DNA of 64,000 nucleotides. It comes from Solirubrobacteraceae bacterium. Lineage in GTDB: Bacteria; Actinomycetota; Thermoleophilia; Solirubrobacterales; Solirubrobacteraceae. A program made the translations under genes and the position numbers. Shown here piece by piece: positions 29,476 to 46,534 of this stretch. The stretch is from the NCBI GenBank assembly GCA_030447505.1, contig JAUJOT010000006.1, positions 62,001 through 126,000 on the forward strand. The letters run 5' to 3'. The first letter of the stretch is position 1. Each line of letters starts with the position of its first letter. The notes below the pieces were generated by a model. That model was given only the letters and a program-made list of their open reading frames with translations. It was not told the origin of the DNA and did not search any database.

Positions 29476-29479
29476 CTCG

Positions 29480-31571: not shown

Positions 31572-31898
31572 TCAGGCCGCCGGCGGCTGCTCCGGCGGAT
31601 CGGCGGATGCCGATCGCGTGGCGCCTGCGGGGGGACGCCAGGGCTCGCCCGGCTTGCGCGCCGGCGGCTGCCACCCCTTGGCGGTCATGCCGAGCGCGCT
31701 CATAGCCCGCTCTTTGGCGGTCCAAGGGATGCGGCGGTACAGCGGCACGAACAGCAGCCGCCAGAACCGGTCGCCCTTCGGCCGGTAGGGCTCGACCGTT
31801 CCCGGCTGATCGCGACCCAGCTCGCTGAGCACCTCGCGGCGCAGGGCGCCCTCGGCGCGCTCGCGCAGGTTGCGCTTGGCATCGGACAACGAGCTCAC
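31572..31898 (-). CDS. Small hypothetical protein of the nitrogen-pathway operon
   Basis: 108-residue soluble protein. SSLSDAKRNLRERAEGALRR is an amphipathic helix. The middle, RPKGDRFWRLLFVPLYRRIPW, is basic and aromatic, and the tail is Pro-rich (RKPGEPWRPPAGA). Its GTG start overlaps the stop of the flavoprotein gene (GTGA), so it is made together with that enzyme. I recognise no family. A membrane-surface or accessory role would fit the basic aromatic patch, but that is a guess. Confidence 0.65.
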   Translation of the reverse strand: MSSLSDAKRNLRERAEGALRREVLSELGRDQPGTVEPYRPKGDRFWRLLFVPLYRRIPWTAKERAMSALGMTAKGWQPPARKPGEPWRPPAGATRSASADPPEQPPAA

Positions 31899-33250
31899 GT
31901 CACGACCGCCAGCTTGTTCTCCCGCTGCGCGGCCAGCGCGTTCTGCGCGGCGATCTGGATCGGCTCGAAGAGCGCGCCGATCGGCGGCGAGTAGATGTTC
32001 TCCATGTACGCGAGGTCGTACAGCGTCGCGCCCCGCTTGGCCGCGAAGGCGAGGAAGTCACAGCGCTCCTTGACGCCCTCGCCGCCGTGGATGACCCCGC
32101 CGATGAGCCGCAGCGTGTCCGGCTCGGCGAGCAGCTTGACGTACGTCTTCTCGGCACCGGGGTAGTAGCGCGCCTTCGTGATGCCGACGCCCTTGGCCAG
32201 CACGTAGGGGATCCCGAGCGTCTTCGCGAGGTTCTCGCCCATCGAGAACCCGCCGATCGTGTAGTCGCCGCCGACCATCCCCCACGGCACCCAGACCGGG
32301 TCGTAGGCGAGCTCGCCGCCGGTGATGTTGACCGCGGCGACGCGTCCCTGGGCGTAGCCATGGGCGCCCGTGAGTCCGGTGATCGGGATCATGTTCAGCC
32401 CGTGCGGGATCTCGACGACGTCGCCTGCCGCCCAGACGCCCGGCGCCGACGTGCGCATGTGGTCGTCCACCACGACCGCGCCGGTCGTGCCGAGCTTCAG
32501 GCCCGCCGCCTCTGCGAGCTTCGTGTTGGGGATCTTGTGCAGCCCGGTCACGACGGCGTCGCACTCGAAGACGCCGTCGGTCGTCGTCACCGCCGCGACG
32601 TGGCCGTCGGCATTGCCGTCGAAGGACTCGGTCTTCGTGCCGAGGTGCAGCGTCACGCCGCGCGCCTCGAGCGAGTCGTGCACGGGCTTGGCGACGTCCG
32701 GGTCGAGGATCTCGTGCAGCACCCACGGCCCTTCGTCGACGAGGTCGACGTGCAGCCCGCGGCGGGCGAGCCCGCCGGCCATCTCGACCCCGACCGGCCC
32801 GGCCCCGACGACGACGATCCGCTTCATGGAGTCCAGCTGCTCGTCGAACTCCATCGACTTGCGGATGTCCTTGACGTAGTGCAGGCCGTCGAGGTTGGCG
32901 CCCGGCACGTCGGGCTGCTCCCAGACGAAGCCGGTGCAGAGGACGAGCTGGTCAAAGCCCTCGGGCTGGTTCTTCGCGGTGATCGTGCGCCGGTCGAGGT
33001 CGATATCGGTGACGACCGTCTCCATCCGCATGTCGAGGCCCTCCTCCTCGTAGCGCTCGACGGTGGACAGGAAGAGGTCCTCGAACTTCGGGATCTCGCG
33101 GCCGTGCACGAACGGGATCCCGCAGGGCGAGTAGGCGATGTCCGAGAACTCCGTGAAGACGCTCACCTTGAGCGCCGGGTTCAGGCGTTTCGTGATGGTG
33201 GCGGCTGCCGTTCCCGCGCCGCCACCGCCGATGACGATCACGCGCTCCAT
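31895..33250 (-). CDS. FAD/NAD-dependent oxidoreductase (NADH oxidase / CoA-disulfide reductase family)
   Basis: 451-residue two-dinucleotide-binding flavoprotein. The FAD site is VIVIGGGGAGTAAATI; the NAD site is RIVVVGAGPVGVEMAGGLAR; the second FAD contact is GVWAAGDVVEIP. Redox-active Cys43 in AYSPCGIPF is the single Cys typical of NADH oxidase, NADH peroxidase and CoA-disulfide reductase. A C-terminal dimerisation domain follows. The gene overlaps the PLP decarboxylase by 13 bp and the next small gene by GTGA. In classical Nit1C clusters the flavoprotein (NitH) is a monooxygenase-type enzyme, so this is a different family in a comparable place. Confidence 0.9.
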   Translation of the reverse strand: MERVIVIGGGGAGTAAATITKRLNPALKVSVFTEFSDIAYSPCGIPFVHGREIPKFEDLFLSTVERYEEEGLDMRMETVVTDIDLDRRTITAKNQPEGFDQLVLCTGFVWEQPDVPGANLDGLHYVKDIRKSMEFDEQLDSMKRIVVVGAGPVGVEMAGGLARRGLHVDLVDEGPWVLHEILDPDVAKPVHDSLEARGVTLHLGTKTESFDGNADGHVAAVTTTDGVFECDAVVTGLHKIPNTKLAEAAGLKLGTTGAVVVDDHMRTSAPGVWAAGDVVEIPHGLNMIPITGLTGAHGYAQGRVAAVNITGGELAYDPVWVPWGMVGGDYTIGGFSMGENLAKTLGIPYVLAKGVGITKARYYPGAEKTYVKLLAEPDTLRLIGGVIHGGEGVKERCDFLAFAAKRGATLYDLAYMENIYSPPIGALFEPIQIAAQNALAAQRENKLAVVT

Positions 33251-34461
33251 GATGGTTCCTCTCGGTCCGAGATGATCAGGTCTGAAAGCTCCTCGCGCCG
33301 GCGGTGCAGGCGCCATGTCCCGCCCTCGCGGGCCACGACGGCTGGCCGCAGGTCGCCGAACTGCGTCGACTGGACCTGCTGGTAGGCGCCCACCTCGCGC
33401 GCCATCAGCACGTCGCCCGGCGCCAGCTCGCCGAGCTCGGCGGCGGGGGCGACGACGTCGATGTTCAGGCACAGCGGGCCGGCGACGAGCGTCGGCGCCG
33501 ACCCCGTCCCGCCCATCCGCGGCGCCAGCGCCTCGAGCCGCGGCCACGCCCACAGGGCCCCGGGCAGCAGGTCGGTGCCGGCGTCGACGACCGCGCAGGT
33601 CGTGCCGTCGGCGAGCGTCTTGACGGCGACGACGCTGCACGCGAGGTCGACCGCGTCGGCGACGAGCGCGCGCCCGGGCTCGAGCATCAGTCGCCCGCTG
33701 AACGCCTCGCGGTGCAGGACGTCGGCGACCGCCGCGCCATGGCCCGCGACGGCGGGAGCGGCCGGGAAGCCGCCGCCGAGGTCGATCGTCGCGACGCCGA
33801 TCTCGGCCGCCAGCCGCGCCAGGGTCGTCGCCGCCTGCGCGTGCACGGTCGGCGCCTTGGCCCACCCGACGCGGACGTTCGCCGCGAGCGTCCCCGCGTG
33901 CTCCCCGCCCAGCGCGGCGGTGCAGTCCGTCGAGACGAGGTGCAGCGACAGCACCTCGAGCGTGAGGCCGAGGTCGCGCGCGCGGCGGGCCGCGCCGACG
34001 ACGTCAGCGGGTGCGATCCCGAACCGGCTCGGGTGTCCCTCGGGCCCGGGCAGCCCGACGCGCAGCCCGGCGCGGGTCACGCCGGCCACCGTCAGCCGCT
34101 CCAGCTCCGCGACGCTGTCGGCGATCACGAGCGCGCGATCGGCGGCGCAGCGCTCGAGCAGCGCGTCCGGCTTCGCCGGGCCGTTGACCGTGATGCGCGC
34201 GCCGTCGACGCCGACGACGTCTCGTGCCAGCGCGTATTCGGCGGCACAGACGACCTCCGCCCCCGCATCGTCGTCGGCGAAGGCCCGCAGGAACGCCGTC
34301 GTACGGTTGGTCTTGTAGGAGTAGGCGACCTCGACCCCGTCCCCGCCCGCCCAGGCCGCCGACCATGCCGCGCGAAAGGCGGCCAGCCGGTCGCGCGCGC
34401 GGTCGACGTCGGCCAGCCAGAGCGGCGAGCCGTGCTCGGCGAGCAGCTCGGCGACGCTCAT
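33238..34461 (-). CDS. Fold-type III PLP decarboxylase, LysA-like
   Basis: 407-residue protein of the diaminopimelate/ornithine decarboxylase family. The PLP lysine is in VAYSYKTNRTTAF. Other conserved parts are IDLGGGFPAAP (Gly-rich phosphate loop), LEPGRALVADA (EPGR) and GPLCLNIDVVA, which matches the GPLCxSxD active-site Cys-Asp motif with Asn in place of the usual Ser/Glu. The barrel and C-terminal beta domain are full length. It is unlikely to be the housekeeping lysine gene, given its location in an 11-gene overlapping chain between an aminotransferase-like gene (ATGA) and a flavoprotein (13-bp overlap). The substrate is probably an unusual amino acid. Confidence 0.85.
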   Translation of the reverse strand: MSVAELLAEHGSPLWLADVDRARDRLAAFRAAWSAAWAGGDGVEVAYSYKTNRTTAFLRAFADDDAGAEVVCAAEYALARDVVGVDGARITVNGPAKPDALLERCAADRALVIADSVAELERLTVAGVTRAGLRVGLPGPEGHPSRFGIAPADVVGAARRARDLGLTLEVLSLHLVSTDCTAALGGEHAGTLAANVRVGWAKAPTVHAQAATTLARLAAEIGVATIDLGGGFPAAPAVAGHGAAVADVLHREAFSGRLMLEPGRALVADAVDLACSVVAVKTLADGTTCAVVDAGTDLLPGALWAWPRLEALAPRMGGTGSAPTLVAGPLCLNIDVVAPAAELGELAPGDVLMAREVGAYQQVQSTQFGDLRPAVVAREGGTWRLHRRREELSDLIISDREEPSWSA

Positions 34462-35819
34462 GACCCGGCCCGCACCGTCGCGGCGAGGTCGAGCGCCCGC
34501 GCCGTGCCCTTGCTCTCCAGCAGGGCCGCCACCGGGTCGCGCCAGCGCCCGGATGCCGCCTCGGCGATCGCCTCGGGCAGCATTGCGCGCAGGTGCTCCA
34601 TCGCCCACGGGTCGGGGCGCGACAGGTTCAGCCGCAGCGTCGTGGCCGCTCCGGTCGTGCCCATCCCGTCGCCGGGATACGTGGCGACGTGGCGGGCGAA
34701 CAGCGCGACCATCAGCTCCTGCGCGGTGACCCCTGCGCCCGATGTGTCGAGCGCACACGCGAGCCCGCGCACCGGTGACGTCGCAAGCGCGATCGTGTCG
34801 ACGTCGGCAAGCGTCACCTGCAGGTGGGCGAGGTTGCCGCGCACGACCTCTTCGGCATGCGCGAGGTAGTGCTCGTCCTGCAACGCCGCGAGCGCTCCAT
34901 GCTGGGCGATGAGGCTCGTGTTCAGGCGCGTCAGCGCGGCCTTCAGGCGCAGGCAGCTGCGCATGAGGCGCGAGGGGCCCGCGAGGAAGCCGATCCGCGC
35001 GCCCGCCATGCCGTAGCAGTGCGAGACCGAGAACGTGGCGACCGCGTTGTCGGTGAGCTCCAACGCCGGGAGCGATGCGAACGGCACGTCGGGATCGATC
35101 ACGATCGCGCCGTGCGTCACGTCGTGGATGAGCAGCAGGTCGTGCTCGTCGGCGAGATGCGCCAGAGCCGCCAGCTCGTCCCCGGTCTGGACGGTGCCGT
35201 ACGGGTTCAGCGGATCGACGATCACGATCGCGCGGCTGCGCGGGGTGATCGCAGCGGCCACGACGTCGGGATCGAGGCGATAGCCGTGGGCGGCGTCGAT
35301 CGAGACCGTGACCGGAACCGCACCCGCGGCGATCACCGCCGACGGCACGTGGAAGTAGCCCGGGTCCGACAGGATGACCTCGTCGCCGGGCCCGGCGACC
35401 GCCATCAGCGACAGCGCGATGCCCGCCTGCGCGCCCTCGGTGCCGACGACCTCGAAGCCGTCGTCGCGGTCGCGGCCGAGCACGCCCGCGGCGGCGTCAC
35501 GCAGCGGCTCGATGAGGTCGGGGCTGTACTGGTTGAGGTGCTCGGTGGTGACGGCGTCGCGCATCGCGCGCACGGCGCTCGCCGGCGGCCCGGCGAAGCA
35601 CGTCAGCCAGCCCAGGTCGGCCCACGTCGCGGGATCCAGGCGCGTCGTTCCGCCGGGATAGAGCGCGGCGGGGTCGAGGCCGACGATCCCGATCGCGTCG
35701 CGATAGGTCAGGTAGTTCCACATCGCGTGGTGCGAGCGCTCGAGCGCGCGCAGCCGCTCGGACGCAAGCTGCGGCGTGGTGGCGGGATCGGCGCCCCACG
35801 TCAGGACCGAGGAGCTCAT
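34458..35819 (-). CDS. Aminotransferase class I/II-fold protein lacking the PLP lysine
   Basis: 453-residue protein with the fold-type I aminotransferase layout. GTEGAQAGIAL is the phosphate-binding turn, AGPGDEVILSDPGYFHVPS the usual large-domain strand, VDPLNPYGTV holds Asn205, and LIHDVTHG holds Asp233 (the usual Tyr three residues later is His). The Schiff-base motif normally written SxSKxxxxxGxRxG reads SVSHCYGMAGARIG here. Position 267 is His, encoded by CAC, while the phosphate-binding Arg275 is kept. The protein may bind PLP or a PLP adduct non-covalently, or act by another chemistry or as a partner of the decarboxylase, to which it is coupled by ATGA. There is no frameshift, so it is not simply broken. 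Confidence 0.85.
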   Translation of the reverse strand: MSSSVLTWGADPATTPQLASERLRALERSHHAMWNYLTYRDAIGIVGLDPAALYPGGTTRLDPATWADLGWLTCFAGPPASAVRAMRDAVTTEHLNQYSPDLIEPLRDAAAGVLGRDRDDGFEVVGTEGAQAGIALSLMAVAGPGDEVILSDPGYFHVPSAVIAAGAVPVTVSIDAAHGYRLDPDVVAAAITPRSRAIVIVDPLNPYGTVQTGDELAALAHLADEHDLLLIHDVTHGAIVIDPDVPFASLPALELTDNAVATFSVSHCYGMAGARIGFLAGPSRLMRSCLRLKAALTRLNTSLIAQHGALAALQDEHYLAHAEEVVRGNLAHLQVTLADVDTIALATSPVRGLACALDTSGAGVTAQELMVALFARHVATYPGDGMGTTGAATTLRLNLSRPDPWAMEHLRAMLPEAIAEAASGRWRDPVAALLESKGTARALDLAATVRAGS

Positions 35820-36691
35820 CGCACCGCTCCCGTCGCGACGTCACGGCGAACGAAGCGCATGACGCGATAGATGCCGTGGCGATCGGAGGTCACGGCTGTG
35901 GGCTCCCACCCGGCGGCGCGCGCATAACGCTCGATCTGCTCGGGCGGGCGCAAACGCCACACGCAGCGCCCGCCCTCGGCGTTGCGCCAGACGCGCGCGA
36001 TGTACTCGATCTCGGGGTTGGCGACCTGCACGTTGCAGACGATCTGGGCCGGCGCCACGGTCTCGGCGAGATCGGCGAAGTGCCGCTCGAGGATGCGGTC
36101 GTCGTGGTAGATGCCGTAGAGGCCGAGCTCGCAGACGATGTGCGGCGGCGGCGTGAGCGCCGCGAGCGCGGCCCGGTCGAACGCGCTGGCCTGGCGGGTG
36201 GTCACACGGTCCTGCACGCCGAGCTCGCGCGCCGCGGCGGACGCCTGCTCGAGCGCGGCGGCGTCTACGTCGCACAGCACCGCGCTCGCGGCGGGACGCC
36301 GGCGGAGGGCGTGCAGCAGATAAGGGCTCGGCCCGGCGGCGAGATCGGCTACGACGGGACGATCGGACTCCGCGGCGTCGATCGCCTGCAGCACGGCCGC
36401 CTCGGCGAGGCGGCGGGCGTCGCGAAAGGCCTGGCAGGTCGCGCGGTCCAGCAGCCGCCGGTCCAGCCGCCGCCCCAGCGGCGTGCGCCCGAGCGCGTGG
36501 TCGGCGTAGACGTGCGCCATGAAGGGGCCCGAGTCGAAGCCGTGCCGATGGCCGATCCGCGCGCCCTCGGACAGGCATGCGCCCGCGCGCGACGCGAGCG
36601 ACAGCGCGGCGAAGCGCCACGCGCGCGGCGAGCTGCGCGGCAGGTCGGCGCGCAGCGCCTCGAATCGGCGTGTGGCAAGATCAGCCGACAT
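35816..36691 (-). CDS. Class I SAM-dependent methyltransferase (putative methyltransferase family PF12147-like)
   Basis: 291-residue protein. The N-terminal helical cap includes HRHGFDSGPFMAHVYADHAL. The Rossmann core has PVVADLAAGPSPYLLHAL (motif I), AVLCDVDAAALEQAS (motif II, acidic ribose-binding Asp) and HIVCELGLYGIYHDDR. A C-terminal segment is GWEPTAVTSDRHGIYRVMRF. The FDSG-type cap resembles the putative methyltransferases often fused to lipases. It overlaps the ferritin-like gene by 11 bp and the aminotransferase-fold gene by ATGA. The acceptor substrate is unknown. Confidence 0.8.
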   Translation of the reverse strand: MSADLATRRFEALRADLPRSSPRAWRFAALSLASRAGACLSEGARIGHRHGFDSGPFMAHVYADHALGRTPLGRRLDRRLLDRATCQAFRDARRLAEAAVLQAIDAAESDRPVVADLAAGPSPYLLHALRRRPAASAVLCDVDAAALEQASAAARELGVQDRVTTRQASAFDRAALAALTPPPHIVCELGLYGIYHDDRILERHFADLAETVAPAQIVCNVQVANPEIEYIARVWRNAEGGRCVWRLRPPEQIERYARAAGWEPTAVTSDRHGIYRVMRFVRRDVATGAVR

Positions 36692-37217
36692 ACAGCCCGG
36701 TCTCGACGAGCTCGCGCAGCCGGTAGAGCTCGTGGGCGTCGAACGCGGCGCTGTGCGGTCGCGACATCACCGTCGCGAGGCGCTCGCGCGCGAGGTCGTT
36801 GTCGGCGGTGACGATCGCGATCGTGACCGCATCCTCGCCGGTGGCGCGCGCGGCGTACGTGTCCAGCAGCTGCCCGAAGTGGTCCAGCGAGCCGGCCGCG
36901 TAGGCGACGAGCTCGTCGAAGTTCTCGATGACCTCTATGCGCTCGTAGATCGCCTCGCCCTCGGGCGGCGCGACGTACGCGTCGGGCTCGACGCCGTGCG
37001 CGATCGCGCGTGCCCGGAAGAGGTTCATGTGGCGGGCATTGGCGGCGACGATCTCGGCGAGCAGCTGCTTGGCATCCGGATCGTCGGTCAGCGGCACGCG
37101 GGCCGAGAACAGGTCGACCCAGCGCCGCATGCCGTAGGCGTGGCGCGCGAAGACCTTGCCGATCCGCCGCGGGTCGTCCGCGAGGACGTCGAGCAGCTCC
37201 TCGCGGTTATCGAGCAT
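36681..37217 (-). CDS. Helical protein, possibly ferritin-like
   Basis: 178-residue all-helical protein, with segments EELLDVLADDPRRIGKVFAR, LLAEIVAANARHMNLFRARA, IYERIEVIENFDELVAYAAG and SLDHFGQLLDTYAAR. Glu and His residues sit at the spacings seen in ferritin-like four-helix bundles (E-x6-Y, E/D-x2-H), so a di-metal site is possible but unproven. Its start lies inside the 3' end of the OsmC gene (11-bp overlap), and its end overlaps the methyltransferase gene by 11 bp. ATG 37217 is the only start that fits this coupling. Confidence 0.65.
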   Translation of the reverse strand: MLDNREELLDVLADDPRRIGKVFARHAYGMRRWVDLFSARVPLTDDPDAKQLLAEIVAANARHMNLFRARAIAHGVEPDAYVAPPEGEAIYERIEVIENFDELVAYAAGSLDHFGQLLDTYAARATGEDAVTIAIVTADNDLARERLATVMSRPHSAAFDAHELYRLRELVETGLYVG

Positions 37218-37635
37218 CGCCGGGTGGGCTGTCGAGGACGACGGGCACGTAGGAGACCTCGAGGTCGGAGGCGAGCATGTTCGAGACCCAGCAGAAGGAC
37301 TTGGCGCGTTCGACGAGGGCGGCGAGGTCGTGCTCGCCCGACGCCGCCGCGACCTCGACCCGCAGCCGGCTGTAGCGCAGCTCGCGGCCGACCCGCTCGG
37401 CATCGACGGCCACGCGCAGCCCCGGCAGCTCGATGTCGCGCTTGGCCGCGACATGCGCCACGGCGAGGCAGAAGCAGCTCGCCAGGCCGGCGAAGAACAG
37501 CTCGGTCGGCATCATGCCCCGGTTGCCGCCGCCGTACGTCTCGGGCTCGTCGGCGATCAGCTCGTGGTCGCGCGCGGTCACGGCTGCGGCGAGCTCCCCC
37601 TGCCAGCGCGCCTCGACGTGTCGCGCCTCGCTCAT
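37207..37635 (-). CDS. OsmC/Ohr family thiol peroxidase-like protein
   Basis: 142-residue OsmC-fold protein. NRGMMPTELFFAGLASCFCL carries the first reactive Cys54 and KSFCWVSNML the second, Cys115, the two residues used to reduce organic hydroperoxides. The beta-sheet start EARWQGELAAAVTAR is also typical. It is one base overlapped with the glycosyltransferase gene upstream (TGATG). A peroxide- or thiol-handling protein within the chain suggests that the pathway makes a reactive sulfur, peroxide or cyanide-like intermediate (inference). Confidence 0.88.
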   Translation of the reverse strand: MSEARHVEARWQGELAAAVTARDHELIADEPETYGGGNRGMMPTELFFAGLASCFCLAVAHVAAKRDIELPGLRVAVDAERVGRELRYSRLRVEVAAASGEHDLAALVERAKSFCWVSNMLASDLEVSYVPVVLDSPPGDAR

Positions 37636-38801
37636 CAGAGCGCTCCGATCGGATCGGCGTCGAACGACCGGTACGCGTCCTCGTGGGCGGCGGCCGCCGT
37701 GTCCCAGCCGTAGGCGTCGACGACGTCGCGGCCACCGGCGACGAGCCGGCTGCGCAGTGCCGGCTCGCGCGCGACGCGCGCCAACGTCCGGCCCAGCGCG
37801 GCGCCGTCGCCCGCGGGCGACAGCAGCGCGCTTTTCCCGTGGGCCAGAAAGGTGCGAAGGACGTCGATCTCCGACGCGACGACCGGCAGCCCGGTCGCCA
37901 GCGCCTCGAGCGCAACGAGGCCGAAGCCCTCCTTCGTCGACGGAAACGCGAAGACGTCGGCTGCGCGGTAGTGGCGTTCGAGCTCGGCCGGGCTGACCGT
38001 GCCGACGACGCGCACGTGCTCGCTGACGCCGAGCTCGCGCGCGCGCACGTCGAACCGCCCGATCTCGTCGCGATAGTCGAACAGGGTCGCGCCGCCGACG
38101 ATGAGCAGCAGCGGATCGAGGTCGGGAGCCTGCTCGCGCAGGTGGGCGAAGCCCTCGAGCAGCGTCAGCGACCCCTTGCGCGGCTCGATGCCGCCGACGG
38201 TGAGCACCGCGAACCGGTCGCCGAGCGCGAGCGCATCGCGGTCGGCTGCCCGCTCGGCGTCGTCGCGCGGCGCGCGGAAGCGGTCGCAGTCGACGCCGTT
38301 GCGCACCAGCCGCGCTTCAACGCCGAACTCGTCCGCCAGGCGCTCGATCCACGGCTGCGAGACGCAGAGCACGAGATCGGGCGCGAGGATCGACCGGTCC
38401 TGACAGGCGATGAGCGACGGGGAGATGAAGTCGTCGACATGGTGGACGGTGCGCACCACGTGCCGGATGACGCCCTCGTCGCGCAGGTCGAGCGCCGCGT
38501 TGGCCGAGATGCAGTCCTGCGCGTGGACGACGTCGAAGTCACCCTCGGCCAGCAGCGGGCGCAGGCCGTCGCGATAGGCATCGACCATCGCCAGGATGCG
38601 CTCGTCGAAGACTTCGGCGGTGGGGACGTGCTCGACGAGCCGCGTACCGGCGGCGGTCGCCCGGAAGAACGTCTCGCCCGGTTGCGCCAGGGCCGACACG
38701 CAGACCTCGTGGCCGCGGCCTGCCAGCGCCTCGGCGACCGCGAGCGCGTGCTCGACGCCGCCGCGCGGCTTGACCGAGTAGGTCAGCATCGCGATCTTCA
38801 C
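37635..38801 (-). CDS. GT4 glycosyltransferase, MSMEG_0565 family
   Basis: 388-residue GT-B glycosyltransferase. KIAMLTYSVKPRGGVEHALA is the diagnostic start of the MSMEG_0565 family. GDFDVVHAQDCISANAALDL and RHVVRTVHHVDDF follow in the acceptor domain. The donor domain has RFAVLTVGGIEPRKG and the E-x7-E motif in FAFPSTKEGFGLVALEALA. This family recurs next to Sll0783/MSMEG_0572-type nitrogen starvation genes, which links the leftward arm to the rightward arm. It starts at GTG 38801 within the fdrA stop (GTGA). The sugar donor and acceptor are unknown. Confidence 0.9.
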   Translation of the reverse strand: MKIAMLTYSVKPRGGVEHALAVAEALAGRGHEVCVSALAQPGETFFRATAAGTRLVEHVPTAEVFDERILAMVDAYRDGLRPLLAEGDFDVVHAQDCISANAALDLRDEGVIRHVVRTVHHVDDFISPSLIACQDRSILAPDLVLCVSQPWIERLADEFGVEARLVRNGVDCDRFRAPRDDAERAADRDALALGDRFAVLTVGGIEPRKGSLTLLEGFAHLREQAPDLDPLLLIVGGATLFDYRDEIGRFDVRARELGVSEHVRVVGTVSPAELERHYRAADVFAFPSTKEGFGLVALEALATGLPVVASEIDVLRTFLAHGKSALLSPAGDGAALGRTLARVAREPALRSRLVAGGRDVVDAYGWDTAAAAHEDAYRSFDADPIGAL

Positions 38802-40279
38802 GCCGCAGCGCCCTCCGGCGCGATCGTCCGCAGCGCGAGGCGGCTGGCGGCGGCGTTCGAGGGCGCGACGATCGCGCCCGCCTCCCGCAGGATCCGCGTC
38901 TGGCGAACGGCGTCCTGCGGGTCGCCGCGCGTTCCGCAGACGCGCGCGAGCACGACCGCGTCCTCCGCCGCGGCGGCGATCGCGTCCGACAGGCCGGATG
39001 CCGGATCCGCGTGGCCGCCGTGGCCGAGCACGACGTCGAGCAGCACGCAGCCGACCGCGTCGTCCTCGGCCGCCTCCTGCAGGAACCCGAGCCGGACGTC
39101 GAGGTCGACCATCGGGTGCGGGCGGCCCTGCGTGTATTCCTCCTCGCCGAGGTCCAGCACGGCGTGGCCACCGTTGCGCTCGTCGGGGCCGTGGCCGACG
39201 TTGCCCTCCAGCGGGCCGAGCGCGGGCTCGAGCAGCGTGACCGCCTCGTGCGCGAGCGAGCCGCCGGAGAACAGGCCGAGCAGGCGCCGTCCGGCGCAGC
39301 GCTCGCGGGCGGCGTCGGCCGCGGCCTCGAGCTCGCCGAGATCCTCGGGCTCGGTGCCGGCCGCGGCGCGCGCCGCGGCCTCGAGCGTGTCGTGGATCTC
39401 GAACGGCGCCGCGCCACCGTCCCAGCCGACGAAGGCGGCGACGACCCGCTTGCCGTCGGGCAGATCGTCGGCCAGCGACGCGACGACCTCCGCGGCCGGG
39501 GGCTTGGAGACGAGCAGCAGCGTCTCGGTCTCGTCGTCGGCCGCGAGCAGGTGCATCGCCTGGCGGAACATGATCCCCCCGATATCGGCCGACAGGTCGC
39601 GGCCGCCGACGCCGACGATCTGCGAGACCCCGACGCCGGCGGCGTCGAGCAGGCAGGCCGACTCCTGCGCGCCCGTGCCCGCGGCGGCGACGATGCCGAC
39701 GGGCCCAGCCGTGACGACGTTCGCGAAGCCGAGCCCGACGTTGGCGAGCATCGCGGTCCCGCAGCCGGGTCCCATCACGAGCAGCCCGAGCTCCTCGCCG
39801 CGCTGCTTGAGAGCCAGCTCGTCCTCGAGCGAGACGTGGTCGGAGAAGAGAAAGACGTGCATACCGGCGCTGAGCGCGCGGTGCGCCTCGAGCGTCGCGT
39901 ACTCGCCGGCCACGGAGATGAGCGCGACGTTGGGCTCGGAGAGCTGCCGCAGCGCCGAGACCAGCGACCGCGGCGGCTCGCGCTTGGCGGTCGCGCCCGC
40001 GGCAGCGGCCTCGCCTCCCCCGCTCGACAGCTCCTCCTCGGCCTTCGCGATCGTTTCCGCGGCGACCTCCTCGCTGTCGGCCTCGACCGCGACGATCAGA
40101 TCCGACGGCCCCGCCTGCGCCTCGACGCCGCGCGCGGCGAGCGCGTCGAGGTTGGCCGCGGTGCCCATTCCCATCTCGCAGCCCGACACGCCGTCGCGCG
40201 CGCGCAGGCCGCGGGCGATGCCCATGAGCTTGACGCTGTCGGCGTACCGGTTGGCGATGACCTTCACGTGCCAGCTCAC
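38798..40279 (-). CDS. fdrA: FdrA/AllF-type acyl-CoA-synthetase-like carbamoyltransferase subunit
   Basis: 493-residue protein of the FdrA family, built like fused succinyl-CoA synthetase alpha and beta parts. It begins HVKVIANRYADSVKLMGIAR. It contains VFLFSDHVSLEDELALKQRG, GLLVMGPGCGTAMLANVGLG, VGIVAAAGTGAQESACLLDAAG, VGGRDLSADIGG, GLFSGGSLAHEA and YTQGRPHPMVDLDVR. In E. coli FdrA is AllF, one of three subunits (AllFGH) assigned as oxamate carbamoyltransferase. The other two, DUF1116 and DUF2877, are encoded in the opposite arm of this locus. It is coupled by GTGA to the carbamate kinase and to the glycosyltransferase. Confidence 0.92.
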   Translation of the reverse strand: MSWHVKVIANRYADSVKLMGIARGLRARDGVSGCEMGMGTAANLDALAARGVEAQAGPSDLIVAVEADSEEVAAETIAKAEEELSSGGGEAAAAGATAKREPPRSLVSALRQLSEPNVALISVAGEYATLEAHRALSAGMHVFLFSDHVSLEDELALKQRGEELGLLVMGPGCGTAMLANVGLGFANVVTAGPVGIVAAAGTGAQESACLLDAAGVGVSQIVGVGGRDLSADIGGIMFRQAMHLLAADDETETLLLVSKPPAAEVVASLADDLPDGKRVVAAFVGWDGGAAPFEIHDTLEAAARAAAGTEPEDLGELEAAADAARERCAGRRLLGLFSGGSLAHEAVTLLEPALGPLEGNVGHGPDERNGGHAVLDLGEEEYTQGRPHPMVDLDVRLGFLQEAAEDDAVGCVLLDVVLGHGGHADPASGLSDAIAAAAEDAVVLARVCGTRGDPQDAVRQTRILREAGAIVAPSNAAASRLALRTIAPEGAAA

Positions 40280-41217
40280 AGCAGCACGGCCTCCTGCTCG
40301 GCCTGGATCCACGTTCCGTCCTCGCCGCGGATCGCGGCCAGCAGCGAGTCGGCGTCGGTGATGATCGCCGCGTGCCCGCCGCCGGTGGCGAATCGCTGGG
40401 CCGACTCGATCTTCGGGCCCATGCTGCCAGCCGGGAACTCGCCCGCGTCCAGCCGGCGGCGCGTCTCGGCAACGCTCATGTGCCACAGCGGGCGCTCCCA
40501 GCGCGTGCCGAAGTCCTCCACGACCCGCGGAACCGCGGTCAGCAGCACGAGGATGTCGAACCCGAGCGCGATCCCGAGCTCCGCCGAGCAGCGGTCCTTG
40601 TCGATCACGGCCGCCATGCCGGAAAGCGTGCCGCCGCGCGTGCTCACCGGGATGCCGCCGCCGCCGGCGGCGATCACGATCGAGCCGCTCTCGGCGAGCA
40701 CCCGGATCGCCTCGAGCTCGAGGATCTCGACCGGCTTCGGGCTCGCGACCATGCAGCGCCAGCCGCGCCCGGAGTCCTCGCCGACGACCCAGCCGCGCTC
40801 GCGCGACAGCCGCTGGGCCTCCTCCTCGCTGTAGTACGGGCCGACCGGCTTCGTCGGGTTCTCGAAGGCGGGGTCGTCGTCCTCGACGCGCACGCGGGTC
40901 AGGACCGCCGCGGTCGGCGCGGCGGGATCGATCTCGGCGATGCTCGTCTGCAGCAGGTAGCCGAGCTCGCCCTGTGTCATCGCGCCGAGCGCGTGCAGCG
41001 GAAGCGCCGGCACCTGCGGCTCGCCCATCGCGTGCTGGAGCATGAGCGTGCCGACCTGGGGCCCGTTGCCGTGCGTCAGCACGACCTGGTGTCCTTCATG
41101 GCGCAGCGCCACCACGGCTTCTGCCACCGGCCGTGCGCTGTGCAGCTGATCGGCCCACGTGCCGCGCTGGTTCTCCTTGAGCAGGGCGTTGCCGCCCACG
41201 GCGATCACGATGCGCAT
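40276..41217 (-). CDS. arcC: Carbamate kinase
   Basis: 313-residue amino-acid-kinase-fold enzyme. RIVIAVGGNALLKENQRGTW and VLTHGNGPQVGTLMLQHAMG are the ATP- and carbamate-binding loops. VIAAGGGGIPV and VIDKDRCSAELGIALGFDIL are the second half of the site. It converts carbamoyl phosphate and ADP to carbamate and ATP (reversible). It lies 3 bp after the XRE-cupin regulator and directly before fdrA, the arrangement of the allantoin/oxamate route, where it corresponds to AllK. No arginine deiminase genes are present, so an arginine pathway is unlikely. Confidence 0.95.
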   Translation of the reverse strand: MRIVIAVGGNALLKENQRGTWADQLHSARPVAEAVVALRHEGHQVVLTHGNGPQVGTLMLQHAMGEPQVPALPLHALGAMTQGELGYLLQTSIAEIDPAAPTAAVLTRVRVEDDDPAFENPTKPVGPYYSEEEAQRLSRERGWVVGEDSGRGWRCMVASPKPVEILELEAIRVLAESGSIVIAAGGGGIPVSTRGGTLSGMAAVIDKDRCSAELGIALGFDILVLLTAVPRVVEDFGTRWERPLWHMSVAETRRRLDAGEFPAGSMGPKIESAQRFATGGGHAAIITDADSLLAAIRGEDGTWIQAEQEAVLL

Positions 41218-41220
41218 GAG

Positions 41221-41829
41221 TCAGTCAACTCCCCTCACCATGAACCAGAGCGCGCGCGCCGGGCGCTCGGTCGGATTTGCCCACCTGTGCGGCCGGTCGG
41301 TCCGGAAGTGGATCGAGTCGCCGGGCCCGAGATCGATCGCCTCGCCGTCGACCGTGAAGCACATCGCCCCCTCGAGCAGGTAGACGAGCTCCTCGCCGGG
41401 ATGGCGCATCGGGTCGCGGCCGCTGTTGGCGAGTGGCTCGACGCGCGCCTCGGCGCCGGCCAGCCGGTAGCGGCCGTAGCGCCCGGAGACGTTGTCGAGC
41501 GCGATCCCGGACTTCGAGGTGTACAGGCGAGCGCGCTCGTCGCGGCGAACGACGATCGCCGCCGGCACCGCGACATCCTCGTCGATGAAGAAGCTCACGC
41601 TCGTGTCGAGCGCGGCCGCCACCTTCATGAGCGTCGCGATCGTCGGCGTCATGCCGCTCTTCTCGATCTTGTGCACCGAAGCGGTCGAGACCCCCGCGCG
41701 GCGGGCGAGTTCGGCGAGCGACCAGCCGCGCTCGGTGCGAGCCATCGCGAGCTTCGCGCCCAGCGCCGAGACCGTGCGCTCGATGTCGGGAAGCGTCAGC
41801 GGAGTGATCTTGCGTCCGTCCGTGTCCAA
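41221..41829 (-). CDS. XRE-family regulator with C-terminal cupin domain
   Basis: About 202 residues. The helix-turn-helix (about 15-75) reads LAMARTERGWSLAELARRAG, then VSTASVHKIEKSGMTPTIAT. The cupin sensor domain (about 125-195) contains MRHPGEELVYLLEGAMCFTV and GPGDSIHFRTDRPHRWANP. Such regulators bind a small metabolite in the cupin and often control the genes beside them. The start is uncertain: TTG 41829 gives a normal family N-terminus and lies just after a plausible -10 element, which would give an almost leaderless message. It is the first gene of the leftward chain and faces the Sll0783-like gene across a 196-bp gap. Confidence 0.85.
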   Translation of the reverse strand: MDTDGRKITPLTLPDIERTVSALGAKLAMARTERGWSLAELARRAGVSTASVHKIEKSGMTPTIATLMKVAAALDTSVSFFIDEDVAVPAAIVVRRDERARLYTSKSGIALDNVSGRYGRYRLAGAEARVEPLANSGRDPMRHPGEELVYLLEGAMCFTVDGEAIDLGPGDSIHFRTDRPHRWANPTERPARALWFMVRGVD

Positions 41830-41839
41830 GATGTGTCGG

Positions 41840-41867
41840 ATAGTACACGTCGCGCGACTTGCCGCAA
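41840..41867 (-). promoter_or_regulatory. Possible promoter of the XRE-cupin operon
   Basis: On the minus strand TTGCGG (41867-41862), 16 bp and TACTAT (41845-41840). Transcription would start about 41833, four bases before the TTG start codon, giving a leaderless or nearly leaderless transcript. The match is moderate. Confidence 0.4.
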
Positions 41868-41952: not shown

Positions 41953-41971
41953 TGCGTACACAATCCGATAT

Positions 41972-42025: not shown

Positions 42026-42502
42026 ATGGCCGACAACTTGACTGCCGCCGGAACCGAGCTGTTCAACACCGAGGAGAAGCTCTTCGAGGACATCCAGGCC
42101 GAGCCCGGGCAATCGGCGTACACGTTCATGCACACGGTGCCCTACGAGGGCTCGGTCGGCCTCGTGAACCTGCTCACGACGACCCGCATCCTGCGCAAGG
42201 GATTCCAGACCAACCTCATCCTGTACGGGCCCGGCATCCTGATGGCCTCGGGTACTCGCGGCTTCCCGAAGGTCGGCGACGAGGCGTTCCCCGGGCACAT
42301 GGCGATCAACAACCAGATCGGCCAGTTCATGGAGGAGGGCGGCAACGTCTACGCCTGCCGCTTCGCCGCCGGCGCGCTCTACGGCTTCCCAGAGGACAAC
42401 TTCATGCCGGGCGTCAAGCCGTTCCATCCGCTCGACGTGCTGGATGCCGCGCTGACGGCGTGGCGCGACAAGGCGTTCCAGCTCAACACCTGGACCGTCT
42501 AG
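42026..42502 (+). CDS. Sll0783/MSMEG_0572 family nitrogen starvation response protein (NitB-like)
   Basis: 158-residue protein with the full family pattern: [80 protein letters not shown] and [20 protein letters not shown]. This DsrE-like small protein is the first gene of Nit1C clusters, which are induced by nitrogen starvation and linked to cyanide assimilation in pseudomonads and other bacteria. A strong AGGAGG site (42015-42020) and a structured leader precede it. The next gene in canonical clusters is a nitrilase; here it is an unrelated 209-residue gene. Confidence 0.93.
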
Positions 42503-42506
42503 GGCC

Positions 42507-43136
42507 GTGCTGGTGCTGGACCGGGACGCAGCGGTGGCGGCGTGGCGCCGCGCCGAGGGGCACATCTACCCCTCGGTCATGCTCAACGCCTCGCTCTACC
42601 AGGAGTACGTGGCGGTCATCAAGGGGATCGCGGAGGAGCTCGGCGACGTGCGCACCGAGGACGACCTCGTGCTCGCCTGGCACGAGCGCCGCGACCTCGC
42701 CCACGAGGTGATCGCCCGCACCGCTCCGTCGATGGGCCAGCTCATGAACCGAGACGGCCTGCGCGATGCCGCCTTCTGCCACCGCCACCGCGAGATCACG
42801 CGTGAGCAGGGCAAGGAGCTCGCCGCGCAGCGCCTGGAGGAAGCAAAGCGCAGCGGTGCCGAGTGGGTGACGTTGTTCGACGACGTGACCCCGCTCGGCG
42901 CCCAGCGCCTGGAGATGCACATCCGCAGCGGGCGGGCACTGCACACGAGCGCGCAGCTGCCGCTCGACGGCACGCGGCCGTCGTGGGAGCTCGAGGTCGT
43001 CCAGCTCGACCCCGGCGACGGCGCCTGGCTGCTGGACAAGCCCCCGCTGCTGAAGACCCAGAAGTTCGACCGTCAAGACGAATGGGAGGCGCGCGTCCAG
43101 CAGGCCCGGTCCTCCTTCGGAGGTGACCACCTGTGA
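42507..43136 (+). CDS. Unrecognised protein between NitB-like and amidohydrolase genes
   Basis: 209-residue soluble protein, start GTG 42507, four bases after the NitB-like gene. Segments: AVAAWRRAEGHIYPSVMLNA, YQEYVAVIKGIAEELGDVRT, DLAHEVIARTAPSMGQLMNR, DAAFCHRHREITREQGKEL, then a beta-rich end with EWVTLFDDVTPLGAQRLEMH and SWELEVVQLDPGDGAWLLDK. The first half is helical with several His, Cys and Arg residues, and the second half looks like a small beta domain. I do not recognise the family and it is not NitG. Its overlap with the amidohydrolase (GTGA) implies that they work together. Confidence 0.7.
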   Translation: MLVLDRDAAVAAWRRAEGHIYPSVMLNASLYQEYVAVIKGIAEELGDVRTEDDLVLAWHERRDLAHEVIARTAPSMGQLMNRDGLRDAAFCHRHREITREQGKELAAQRLEEAKRSGAEWVTLFDDVTPLGAQRLEMHIRSGRALHTSAQLPLDGTRPSWELEVVQLDPGDGAWLLDKPPLLKTQKFDRQDEWEARVQQARSSFGGDHL

Positions 43137-43993
43137 CGACGCACCCCAAGAAGATCATCGATGCGCACTGCCACATCGGCGAGATCCCGCCCTGGAAGTA
43201 CTACGACCTCGAGCATCCCGTGAAGCCGACGGTCTACGACTGGCCCGACACGAAGTCGTTCATGAAGGGCCACATGGAGGAGTTCAAGGTCGAGCGCGCC
43301 CTCGTGATGTCCAACTACGGGGTGCCGGTCCACGAGTTGTCCTTCGACCTCAACGACGTCGTCATGGACGCTGCGACCTCCACCGACCGCCTGCTCGCTG
43401 CGATCTGGGTCTCGTTCCTGCCGCGCAACGCGGAGATGACGCGCCAAGCGCTCAAGCTTGCGTCCGAGTCGAGGGTCGTCGCGCTGAAGACGACGTTCCT
43501 GCTCGGCGGCAACCCCGATCCCAACACTTGGGACGAGGAGGCGACGGCGCTCGCCGACGAGATCTTCGACGTCGCCGAGAAGCACGACCTGATGTTCCAC
43601 TTCCACACGAGCCCGGGCGGCAACTCGGACTTCGGCAACTTCGTGCCGCTCGTCGAGAAGTACGGCAAGCGCTGCAAGATCTACCTCGTCCACATGGGCG
43701 GCGGCGTCTCGGGCCACATCAAGCTCGTCCCGAAGTTCCTCGAGTGGGTGCAGCAGGGCTACAAGGTCTACACCGACACGTCATGGGCCGTGGGCTTCGG
43801 AGCGCGCTGGCTGCTGACGGAGATCGAGCGGACCGGCGTCGGCGGCGACCGCGTCTTCTTCGGCTCCGACGAGCCGTGGTCGGACTTCGACTCGGAGTAC
43901 TGGAAGCTCAACTGCGTGCGCGGGATCTCGCAGGAACTGAAGGACAACGTCTTCTGGCGCAACTTCGAGACCGTGTACGAGGGACGTGGCTGA
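43133..43993 (+). CDS. Amidohydrolase-2 family metal-dependent hydrolase or decarboxylase
   Basis: 286-residue TIM-barrel protein of the PF04909 type. KIIDAHCHIGEIPPWKYYDL carries the two N-terminal His ligands (His12, His14). LMFHFHTSPGGNSD and IYLVHMGGGVSGH carry the middle His residues, and VFFGSDEPWSDFDS the final Asp. Relatives are decarboxylases such as ACMSD or hydrolases of C-N bonds. It occupies the operon place where nitrilase NitC usually stands, overlapping the 209-residue gene by 4 bp and the radical SAM gene by 8 bp. It is the best candidate to replace the nitrilase step (inference). Confidence 0.88.
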   Translation: MTTHPKKIIDAHCHIGEIPPWKYYDLEHPVKPTVYDWPDTKSFMKGHMEEFKVERALVMSNYGVPVHELSFDLNDVVMDAATSTDRLLAAIWVSFLPRNAEMTRQALKLASESRVVALKTTFLLGGNPDPNTWDEEATALADEIFDVAEKHDLMFHFHTSPGGNSDFGNFVPLVEKYGKRCKIYLVHMGGGVSGHIKLVPKFLEWVQQGYKVYTDTSWAVGFGARWLLTEIERTGVGGDRVFFGSDEPWSDFDSEYWKLNCVRGISQELKDNVFWRNFETVYEGRG

Positions 43994-45149
43994 GCAGCGC
44001 GTCATCGACGGGCCGCTGTCGCTCGACGACCGCCGCCTGCTCGTCGAGCTGCAGTCCTTCGGCGTGCGCGTCGTCGGTGCCGACGGCACGCTCGGGCGGC
44101 GCGGCGGCGCGGGCCCGTCGGATGCGCTGTTCATGTACGTCCGCGGGCTGCCGCTGACGGTGCCCCAGCACGCCGAGTTCGTCGCTGGTTCGCCGTACAC
44201 GCTGCGCCTCGACGGCGCCAAGCCGTCGCTGTTTCGCGAGGAGGAGCTCGTCGGCGTCGTCGGGCTTCCGCGGCGACCGAAGATCTACGACATGCAGACC
44301 GCGGACGGGATCCCGTACTGGAAGATCGCGCTGCTGCACCTCGACTCGATCGCCTCGACCGTCGTGCAGAAGTGCATCTACTGGGGCACGCCGGAGCAGT
44401 GCGGCTTCTGCGGGATCGAGCTCACGCGCGGCGAGCAGACGATCCCGGTCAAGACCCCGGCCCAGCTCGCCGAGGTCTGCAGCGCCGCGCACGAGCTCGA
44501 CGGGGCCGTCGACGCGACGCTGACGACGGGCTCGATCAACCGGCGCGACCGCGGCGCGCTGTACATCTCGCGCTGCGCGGCCGCGATCAAGGACGCCTGC
44601 GCGATGCCCGTCCAAGTCCAGTTCGAGCCCCCCGACGAGCTCTCGGTGATCGACGACGTGCACCGCGCGGGCGTCGACGCGGTCGGCATCCACATCGAGA
44701 CGTTCGACCCCGACGTGCTCGCGCGCGTCGCGGCCGGCAAGGCGCAGTGCGGCGTCGAGGGCTACTTCCGCACATGGGAGCGCGCCGTCGAGGTGTTCGG
44801 CCGCGGGCGCGTCACGACCTACGTGATCCTGGGCATGGGCGAGCGCCGCGAGCTCATCGAGGAAGGCTGCCGGCGGGCGATCGAGATGGGCGTGTACCCC
44901 TTCGTGGTGCCGATCCGGCCCGTGCCGGGGACGCTGCTGGCCGACACCCCGACGCCCGATCCCGATTACGTCGCGGCGATCTACCGCAGCGTGTCGGCGA
45001 TGCTCGCCGAATCGGGCCTCGACCACGTCGAGGCCGCGGCGGGCTGCGCGCGCTGCCAGGCCTGCTCGGGCCTCTCGGCCTGGGAGCGCGTCTTCGAGAA
45101 GGAGGCCAACGGTGGCCATTTCCAGCTCGGCACCGTCCACGCTTCCTGA
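43986..45149 (+). CDS. MSMEG_0568 family radical SAM protein (NitD-like)
   Basis: 387-residue Elp3-like radical SAM protein of the Nit1C set. The cluster-binding cysteines are Cys130, Cys139 and Cys142 in KCIYWGTPEQCGFCGIEL, an unusual CX8CX2C spacing that is the norm for this family. Other landmarks are VDATLTTGSINRRDRGALY, PVQVQFEPPDELSVIDDVHR, VGIHIETFDPDVLARVAAGK and YPFVVPIRPVPGTLLAD. A C-terminal Cys trio (GCARCQACSG) may bind another cluster. It starts at GTG 43986 and overlaps the acetyltransferase gene by 38 bp. Confidence 0.94.
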   Translation: MAEQRVIDGPLSLDDRRLLVELQSFGVRVVGADGTLGRRGGAGPSDALFMYVRGLPLTVPQHAEFVAGSPYTLRLDGAKPSLFREEELVGVVGLPRRPKIYDMQTADGIPYWKIALLHLDSIASTVVQKCIYWGTPEQCGFCGIELTRGEQTIPVKTPAQLAEVCSAAHELDGAVDATLTTGSINRRDRGALYISRCAAAIKDACAMPVQVQFEPPDELSVIDDVHRAGVDAVGIHIETFDPDVLARVAAGKAQCGVEGYFRTWERAVEVFGRGRVTTYVILGMGERRELIEEGCRRAIEMGVYPFVVPIRPVPGTLLADTPTPDPDYVAAIYRSVSAMLAESGLDHVEAAAGCARCQACSGLSAWERVFEKEANGGHFQLGTVHAS

Positions 45150-45615
45150 GCAGCGGCTCGCCCCGGTGTGCGCGCTCGCGCGCGGACCGGCCGAGCTGGC
45201 GGCGCATTTCGCGATCCGGCGCACTGTGTTCGTCGACGCGCAGGGCCTGTTCGAGCGCGACGACCGCGATGACCGCGACGAGGACCGGGCGACGCTGCAC
45301 GTCGTCGGCCTGACCGCCGAGGACGTCGCCGGGGCCGTGCGCCTCTATCCGCTCGACGACGACGGCCTCTGGAAGGGCGATCGGCTCGCCGTCCTGCCCA
45401 CCGAGCGCGCGCTGCGACTGGGTGCGATGCTCGTGCGCTTCGCGGTGCGCACCGCGGCCGAGCGCGGCGGCCGGCGGATGGTGGCGCAGATTCAGGTCCC
45501 CAACGTCCGCTTCTTCGAACGGCTGGGCTGGGCGCCCGACGGCGATCCCGCGCCGATGCTCGGCGTCGAGCACCAGCCGATGGCGATCGAGCTCAGCCGC
45601 CGCCCAGGCCGGTGA
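45112..45615 (+). CDS. MSMEG_0567/Sll0786 family nitrogen starvation N-acetyltransferase (NitE-like)
   Basis: 167-residue GNAT protein. AHFAIRRTVFVDAQGLFERD is the family's substrate-binding start. VAGAVRLYPLDDDGLWKGDR and LRLGAMLVRFAVRTAAERGG form the acetyl-CoA site. NVRFFERLGWAPDGDPAPML is the C-terminal lobe. GTG 45112 gives a 38-bp overlap with the radical SAM gene; an internal GTG at 45162 would be a shorter alternative. The 3' end overlaps the oppositely directed AIR-synthase-like gene by 23 bp. The substrate is unknown in all Nit1C clusters. Confidence 0.9.
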   Translation: MAISSSAPSTLPEQRLAPVCALARGPAELAAHFAIRRTVFVDAQGLFERDDRDDRDEDRATLHVVGLTAEDVAGAVRLYPLDDDGLWKGDRLAVLPTERALRLGAMLVRFAVRTAAERGGRRMVAQIQVPNVRFFERLGWAPDGDPAPMLGVEHQPMAIELSRRPGR

Positions 45616-46534
45616 GCGGCGCGACGGCGAAGTCCCACACGGTCGCGCGGCTGCGCCCGGACTGCAGCTCGAGCGCGCGCGAGTCGGTGAAGTGCCCGCA
45701 GGGCTCGCAGGCAAGGCCGCGCCGCGTGAACAGCTCCCGGGCGGCGTCGGCGTGCTCCGCGCTAACGGCGAGGAGGAAGCCGAAGCTCGGGAACGTCCGC
45801 AGCCAGCGCTCGGCCGATACGCCGTCCGGGCGCGGCAGCCGCTCGACGTCGAGCACCGCCCCGCAACCCGCCGCTTCGAGCAGCTGCAGCAGCGACCCGG
45901 CGGCGCCGGGCATCGAGACGTCGCGCGCCGCGCGGCACAGCCCCGCCTCCGCGACCTCGACGAGCGCCTCTCCGTCGCTGCGCAGACGCTCCGGCGCGCG
46001 GTCGCGCAGGGATGTGAAGAAGTCGTTGCGGTCGTCCATGTACCGGCCCTCGAGGCAGAATGCGGCGAGCAGCACGTCGCCTGCTCGGGCAGCGGCGCCA
46101 CGCAGCGGCCGCCGCGCGACACCCGTGCACGTCGCCGACAGCGACGCCGCGCCGCCCAGCGTCAGGTGCCCACCGACCACCTCGACGCCGAGCAGCTCCG
46201 CGGCCCACGCAAGGCCCTCGAGCACGAGCTCGGCATGAGCCTCGTCGGGGCTGACGAGCATGTCCAGGATCGCAAGCGGCCGCCCGCCCATCGCGCGTAT
46301 GTCGGAGACGTTCGTAACCACGGCCGAGGCGCCGGCCGCGCGCGGCTGCGCGGCCACGAACGACGGCAGGATTGCCTCGCCGCAGAGCACGATCCACTCG
46401 TCGCCGTGGGCGACGAGCGCCCCGTCGTCGCCGTCGCCGACGCGACCCAGCCGCCGCACGAGCCGCAGATCGCGCTTGGCGTGCAGGGCCGGCAGGTCGC
46501 GGACGGCGGCCGCGAGCGCTTGGGCGTCGGACAC
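45593..46534 (-). CDS. Sll0787 family AIR-synthase-related protein (NitF-like)
   Basis: 313-residue member of the AIR synthase/selenophosphate synthetase/ThiL superfamily. The ATP- and metal-binding parts include LGRVGDGDDGALVAHGDEWI, VTNVSDIRAMGGRPLAILDM and VEVVGGHLTLGG. DVSMPGAAGSLLQLLEAAG and FPSFGFLLAV are in the second domain. It should activate a carbonyl or amide oxygen with ATP. It is the only right-arm gene on the minus strand and lies 35 bp from the divergent DUF1116 gene, so the arm is split between two or more transcripts. The start is GTG 46534. Confidence 0.9.
   Translation of the reverse strand: MSDAQALAAAVRDLPALHAKRDLRLVRRLGRVGDGDDGALVAHGDEWIVLCGEAILPSFVAAQPRAAGASAVVTNVSDIRAMGGRPLAILDMLVSPDEAHAELVLEGLAWAAELLGVEVVGGHLTLGGAASLSATCTGVARRPLRGAAARAGDVLLAAFCLEGRYMDDRNDFFTSLRDRAPERLRSDGEALVEVAEAGLCRAARDVSMPGAAGSLLQLLEAAGCGAVLDVERLPRPDGVSAERWLRTFPSFGFLLAVSAEHADAARELFTRRGLACEPCGHFTDSRALELQSGRSRATVWDFAVAPLTGLGGG

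Follow-up and report, generated by a model that had tools for sequence, protein, structure and literature searches.

The aminotransferase fold seldom loses its catalytic Lys, and the well-studied proteins in which His has taken its place (ColD, E1, and SpnQ) all act on sugars. In these proteins, the His that replaced the Lys of an aminotransferase serves as an acid/base, and pyridoxamine 5′-phosphate (PMP) is used as the cofactor (PMC8987622). Here we describe a gene in a 64,000-nucleotide stretch of contig JAUJOT010000006.1 from a Solirubrobacteraceae bacterium (hereafter, the window), whose product has the aminotransferase fold and carries His in place of the Lys that forms the Schiff base with pyridoxal 5′-phosphate (PLP). 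We refer to this product as the Lys-less protein. The original prediction, which was made from the sequence of the window, had compared the protein with ColD, and this comparison was apt; the His-for-Lys replacement of ColD is confirmed by the literature (PMC8987622).

The reading frame of the Lys-less gene is intact, with the start codon (ATG) at 35819 and the stop codon (TGA) at 34458. The Schiff-base region of the translated protein reads SVSHCYGMAGARIG. The original prediction had described the motif, His267 (CAC), Asn205, Asp233, Arg275, and the His after Asp, and had called the gene full length and in frame; all these residues were verified in the translation, and the 453-amino-acid open reading frame is open from ATG to TGA. 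The His after Asp, His236, occupies the position that we take to be that of the Tyr touching PLP O3′ in aspartate aminotransferase (AspAT). In the family profile alignment to solved class I aminotransferases, His267 was paired with the Schiff-base Lys of 1gd9/1dju, 1j32, and 1b5o, and no shifted or alternative Lys was found near His267.

The Lys-less protein belongs to the superfamily of the class I/II aminotransferase fold. PF00155 (aminotransferase class I/II) matched residues 78–410 with an E-value of 1.4e-32 (113.8 bits; cut-off, 19.7). The AlphaFold2 model, which was built from the orthologue alignment, had a mean predicted local distance difference test (pLDDT) score of 88.3 and a predicted template modelling (pTM) score of 0.89, and both Foldseek and VIA-align grouped it with class I aminotransferases. 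Among the matches listed, 1bjw (VIA-align Z, 40.7; root-mean-square deviation [rmsd], 2.4 over 372 residues) and GntC 8fft (Z, 40.3; rmsd, 2.2 over 344 residues) were tied.

We also considered membership in described families. The GntC family (NF041364) was excluded by its score (152.3 bits; cut-off, 415) and by the absence of the catalytic Lys, and capreomycidine synthase VioD (TIGR03947) by its score (97 bits; cut-off, 390.9). The ColD/E1/SpnQ group was excluded because the DegT/DnrJ/EryC1 match was partial (residues 125–237, 57.4 bits) and PF00155 was the better match. ColD was not among the 50 matches listed by Foldseek and VIA-align, which leaves structural kinship with it possible, and the Lys-less protein may nevertheless function in the same manner as ColD.

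Orthologues of the Lys-less protein were found in two genomes of the same genus (90–91% identity, with His in both), in phylum and class searches (full length, 47–69% identity), and in a scan of GTDB contigs, in which Candidatus Dadabacteria, other 'Deltaproteobacteria'/Desulfobacterota metagenome-assembled genomes (MAGs), and bacterium HR37 carried orthologues at 45–51% identity. The resulting set consisted of 28 distinct sequences from Thermoleophilia, Dadabacteria, and other 'deltaproteobacterial' MAGs. At the Schiff-base site, for which the original prediction had asked whether His is conserved in homologues, 27 of the 28 sequences had His, one had a gap, and none had Lys, and His was found across at least two phyla. 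Neither homologues with Lys nor a true Lys elsewhere, the observations that the prediction had named as speaking against it, was seen in the alignment. An aminotransferase that forms an internal aldimine with PLP was thus excluded by the lack of the Lys of SxSKxxxxxGxR in every orthologue. The one exception to His is the orthologue at 7064–8437 of locus L054 (the same gene as L083 10001–11353), in which a one-residue deletion removes His; the site reads SGLA-GLGLASIRLG, and the frame is intact.

In the control set, all 40 Lys-type relatives had kept Lys. The His-type proteins formed one clade (support, 100/100) apart from these 40 relatives, and a single change separates the two sets. The long-branch warning raised for the tree touches the attachment of a Lys-type row to the His group and leaves the unity of that group unaffected. 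Lys was lost once, in an ancestor, and the loss has been retained across a long divergence. The ratio of nonsynonymous to synonymous substitution rates (dN/dS) was 0.13–0.19 between close pairs, with similar values for adjacent genes. These values indicate that the Lys-less gene is under purifying selection and is not decaying. No plasmid-borne relatives were found at E ≤ 1e-30. The His-type proteins apparently constitute an undescribed bacterial family that is widely conserved.

The rest of the cofactor pocket was examined in the same alignment. Tyr98, Gly129, Gln131, Asn205, Asp233, His236, Arg275, Arg298, Asn300, and Thr301 were invariant in all 28 orthologues, and Arg396 was invariant in all 27 that have sequence at that position. 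In the family profile, Asp233, Asn205, Arg275, and the C-terminal Arg396 aligned with cofactor/carboxylate residues of solved aminotransferases. By equating them with the residues of AspAT, we take Asp233, Asn205, and Arg275 to be the contacts of pyridine N1, O3′, and the phosphate, respectively. Compared with AspAT, exactly two pocket residues are lost, the Schiff-base Lys and the O3′-contacting Tyr, and each is now His. In AspAT of Escherichia coli, Arg386 binds the substrate α-carboxylate, and Arg292 serves dicarboxylic substrates (PMC6411801); Arg396 of the Lys-less protein is, by homology, the counterpart of Arg386. Arg298 stands 31 residues C-terminal of His267, and in GntC, His250 from the other subunit stands 31 residues past Lys219 (PMC10367076). 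Based on this spacing, Arg298 may be a substrate contact supplied by the partner subunit.

We favor, with a probability of roughly 55%, the reading that the Lys-less protein is capable of catalysis, as a fold type I (class I/II) enzyme that would hold PMP or PLP non-covalently and form no internal aldimine; its cofactor state, reaction type, and substrate are the parts that we infer. The retention of the cofactor and carboxylate residues favors an active PLP/PMP enzyme over a pseudoenzyme, since, in a pseudoenzyme subject to drift, one would expect that some of the residues invariant here had been lost. The purifying selection, the single ancestral change, and the conservation and co-occurrence of the cluster likewise speak for this reading, and ColD, E1, and SpnQ provide its closest mechanistic precedent. 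Together with the fixed His pair, the retained contacts fit a PMP/PLP enzyme acting on an α-amino or keto acid. In such an enzyme, an amino acid donor would aminate PLP, or PMP would be taken up directly, and PMP would condense with the carbonyl of an α-keto acid intermediate. Alternatively, an amino acid and free PLP could give an external aldimine. His267, replacing Lys, would shift the proton at C4′ and Cα, and the outcome might be dehydration/deoxygenation, comparable to that of the sugar 3-dehydratases ColD and E1, or one-way transamination. The cofactor would be held by Asp233, Asn205, Arg275, Tyr98, and the GxQ loop, with Arg396 gripping the substrate carboxylate and Arg298 of the neighboring subunit gripping a second polar or acidic group. 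The pathway would be that of the surrounding nitrogen-related cluster of Nit1C-like, AllFGH, and carbamate kinase genes, which, judged by its parts, would lead to carbamoyl phosphate and from there to ATP, NH3, and CO2.

Some observations weigh against this reading. GntC was inactive once its Lys was lost, although no compensating His was present there (PMC10367076). The Tyr-to-His change at position 236 would alter the O3′ environment, and no dedicated reductase that would complete an E1-type cycle was identified. Additionally, the deletion in the L054/L083 orthologue may mean that His is not strictly essential, or this copy may be dead or mis-assembled.

The original prediction had suggested either a new reaction or a pseudoenzyme partner; pocket retention favors an active enzyme. 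A non-catalytic partner of the SPT1/LCB1 kind with the aminotransferase fold, which would stabilize or regulate an enzyme of the cluster (e.g., the decarboxylase or carbamate kinase), is in our view unlikely but is the best-surviving alternative. No member of the family has Lys, the decarboxylase of the cluster retains its own Lys and catalytic motifs, and there is a precedent in SPT1, which is without the PLP Lys that SPT2 has (PMC6148460). However, the cofactor/carboxylate residues are near-perfectly retained, and the Lys site holds a specific conserved His instead of drifting freely. Moreover, no close Lys-bearing paralogue is present in the cluster, the decarboxylase has a different fold (type III), and its adjacency is lineage-specific.

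The protein could also be a sensor or carrier that binds PLP-amino acid adducts or a substrate-like ligand without turnover, as the cofactor and carboxylate contacts are retained while the covalent anchor is gone. We consider this improbable, since the protein carries no effector domain, DNA-binding or otherwise, and the conserved His pair is better suited to acid/base chemistry. It is more improbable still that another residue acts as the Schiff-base nucleophile. Lys293 would be the candidate because it is the sole lysine invariant in all 28 orthologues, but it lies 26 residues past His267 in the post-strand helix (residues 283–297), where AspAT has ordinary helix residues in the alignment. 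To our knowledge, this position is used by no enzyme of fold type I. The chance that the His stems from a sequencing error or a point mutation, or that the gene is a decaying pseudogene, is negligible, these readings being refuted by the same residue in independent genomes of at least two phyla, the intact frames, and the dN/dS values.

The features of the window that bear on the Lys-less gene are listed in Table 1.

Table 1 The Lys-less gene, its two His codons, and the surrounding gene cluster (positions in the window).
Feature	Position	Strand	Basis or remark
CoA-disulfide-reductase/NADH-oxidase-like flavoprotein, conserved in cluster	31895..33250	-	
LysA-like fold type III decarboxylase, 407 amino acids	33238..34461	-	PF02784/PF00278
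Lys-less aminotransferase-fold protein	34458..35819	-	453 amino acids; PF00155 E = 1.4e-32, family conservation, AlphaFold2 model
His267 codon CAC, in place of PLP Schiff-base Lys	35019..35021	-	Codon reading; profile alignment to PDB aminotransferases
His236 codon CAC, usual Tyr position	35112..35114	-	Invariant in family
S-adenosylmethionine (SAM) methyltransferase	35816..36691	-	PF12147
Helical protein	36681..37217	-	Weak TenA/CADD (heme-oxygenase-like) fold resemblance
OsmC-like protein	37207..37635	-	PF02566
MSMEG_0565 family glycosyltransferase (Nit1C-type marker)	37635..38801	-	TIGR04047 above cut-off
AllF/FdrA-like oxamate carbamoyltransferase subunit	38798..40279	-	NF004760 405.6 bits, cut-off 433; PF00549
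Carbamate kinase (ArcC/AllK-like)	40276..41217	-	TIGR00746 335 bits, cut-off 358; PRK12352 above cut-off
Helix-turn-helix (HTH)-cupin regulator	41221..41829	-	PF01381, PF07883
MSMEG_0572/Sll0783 nitrogen starvation response protein, probably NitB-like	42026..42502	+	TIGR04044 above cut-off
Uncharacterized protein conserved in cluster	42507..43136	+	No Pfam or NCBIfam family; between MSMEG_0572 and amidohydrolase
Amidohydrolase	43133..43993	+	PF04909
MSMEG_0568 family radical SAM protein (NitD-like)	43986..45149	+	TIGR04043 above cut-off
MSMEG_0567/Sll0786 family acetyltransferase (NitE-like, GNAT)	45166..45615	+	TIGR04045 above cut-off
sll0787 family aminoimidazole ribonucleotide (AIR)-synthase-like protein (NitF-like)	45593..46534	-	TIGR04049 283 bits, cut-off 321
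Oxamate carbamoyltransferase subunit AllG	46570..47997	+	PF06545 E = 3.2e-66
Oxamate carbamoyltransferase subunit AllH	48000..48860	+	PF11392 E = 2.2e-15

In reading order, the minus-strand genes encode the HTH-cupin regulator, carbamate kinase, AllF/FdrA, the MSMEG_0565 glycosyltransferase, the OsmC-like protein, the helical protein, the methyltransferase, the Lys-less protein, the LysA-like decarboxylase, and the flavoprotein. The sll0787 AIR-like gene, also on the minus strand, sits between the plus-strand GNAT gene and AllG/AllH. The Lys-less gene shares 4 bp with the upstream methyltransferase gene (35816–35819) and 4 bp with the downstream decarboxylase gene (34458–34461), so that it is probably translationally coupled to both. 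The model of the helical protein had a pLDDT of 93.7, with a best Foldseek E-value of 1.3e-3 to TenA/CADD heme-oxygenase-like proteins, and this protein is possibly diiron or oxygenase-like.

The original prediction had held the Lys-less gene to be tightly coupled to the decarboxylase gene. The overlap bears this out in the window, but the two genes are directly adjacent only in some lineages, and an exclusive coupling is unsupported across lineages. The case for the decarboxylase as a specific partner is therefore weaker than had been assumed: the cluster is shared, but the adjacency is lineage-specific. The decarboxylase scored 126.9 bits against the LysA profile TIGR01048, under the cut-off of 297.9. 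In all lineages it retains the PLP Lys (YSYK) and the GGG, EPGR, GPLCL, and GAY motifs, and given these fold type III motifs it seems to be active in its own right.

The Nit1C cluster, which is tied to cyanide assimilation in Pseudomonas (PMC11049912), is typified by radical SAM, GNAT, and AIR-like genes. Full Nit1C membership was rejected for the cluster of the window: these genes and MSMEG_0572 are present, but the nitrilase NitC was not found in the cluster, and the five CN_hydrolase genes of the genome are all on other contigs. Oxamate carbamoyltransferase of E. coli consists of AllFGH (PMC11326118). Judged by profile matches, the set appears complete here, with an AllF-like protein slightly under the cut-off, AllG, AllH, and an ArcC-like carbamate kinase. 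In the genome (97.65% complete), AllD had no match, and no allantoinase scored above the cut-off (best, 199 bits; cut-off, 358). A role of AllFGH in allantoin catabolism is thus unsupported here. The combination of Nit1C-type genes (without the nitrilase), AllFGH, and carbamate kinase spans 31895–48860 of the window and was also observed at loci L054, L079, L086, and L088 (Thermoleophilia and Dadabacteria).

In other Thermoleophilia and in Dadabacteria, the Lys-less gene is surrounded by the same gene set in altered order. In one lineage, the carbamate kinase gene directly precedes the Lys-less gene. The order helical protein–methyltransferase–Lys-less gene is found in the lineage of the window and in Dadabacteria, and the helical protein gene adjoins the methyltransferase gene in both Actinomycetota and Dadabacteria clusters. 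At several Dadabacteria-type loci, a cysteine-synthase-like gene separates the Lys-less gene from the decarboxylase gene; at L086, this interval holds a fold type II PLP gene of this kind (11365–12303; PF00291), and other loci have gaps of similar size. In other Thermoleophilia, a gene for an SsuD-like luciferase-family monooxygenase lies between the two genes (L054 8450–9451). Dadabacteria-type loci also encode a protein of ca. 150 amino acids that resembles parts of AllF and AllG, whose gene is flanked by those of the OsmC-like and helical proteins (L086 8057–8509, L088 8071–8526, and L073 7859–8317). Co-occurrence was counted in 399 genomes of the class, with statistics that ignore relatedness. 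The Lys-less gene was present in 16 of them; AllF was found in 14 of these 16 versus 22 of the 383 genomes without the Lys-less gene, and the methyltransferase was found in 6 genomes, all of which carry the Lys-less gene. Elsewhere in the window, repeated paired-cysteine units run over overlapping open reading frames at 28826–30812 (plus strand) and may represent a frameshifted gene for a surface protein with repeats.

In the open-licence literature that was searched, preprints excluded, we found neither a description of another His-type class I/II aminotransferase family nor a published link between Nit1C and AllFGH. Within that literature, the replacement of Lys by His in a class I/II aminotransferase subfamily appears to be undescribed. 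We tentatively raise the possibility, which we consider less likely than not, that the family represents a second independent origin of Lys-to-His PMP/PLP catalysis (in class I/II, with an amino or keto acid as the substrate instead of a sugar), in which the His267/His236 pair carries out a new fold type I reaction within an undescribed Nit1C–oxamate carbamoyltransferase pathway. If this is true, a conserved family outside the sugar group would mean that Lys gave way to His on more than one occasion, and it would hint at B6 chemistry of a new kind with amino or keto acids as substrates. In addition, the cluster offers a testable handle on the function of the Nit1C genes and on the role of AllFGH in genomes without a recognizable allantoin pathway.

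Compared with known proteins, the Lys-less protein is alike in its whole fold to AspAT of Thermus thermophilus (1bjw) and to Pyrococcus 1gd9 (Z, ca. 40; rmsd, 2.2–2.6), and it shares with class I AspATs the Asp/Asn/Arg cofactor contacts and the C-terminal carboxylate Arg at matching positions. Unlike these, it has His267, His236 for Tyr, an N-terminal NYxTYRD, and a family-specific R298-L-N-T. Among the cyclic-arginine cyclases (GntC/VioD/OrfR), GntC was the top NCBIfam match (152 bits), but GntC depends on K219 (PMC10367076), and the Lys-less protein is without an equivalent Lys. ColD, E1, and SpnQ likewise have the aminotransferase fold with His for the PLP Lys; however, they are relatives of sugar aminotransferases with nucleotide-sugar substrates, whereas the Lys-less protein belongs to the PF00155 group. 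SPT1/LCB1 is likewise a natural fold type I protein without the PLP Lys (PMC6148460), but it forms a heterodimer with a homologous Lys-bearing subunit, and no such sister is encoded in this cluster. As for the cluster, it has in common with Nit1C the NitD/E/F-type genes, MSMEG_0572, and the MSMEG_0565 glycosyltransferase, and with allFGHK of E. coli it shares AllF, AllG, AllH, and carbamate kinase. Unlike Nit1C or allFGHK alone, the cluster of the window merges both modules and adds the Lys-less gene.

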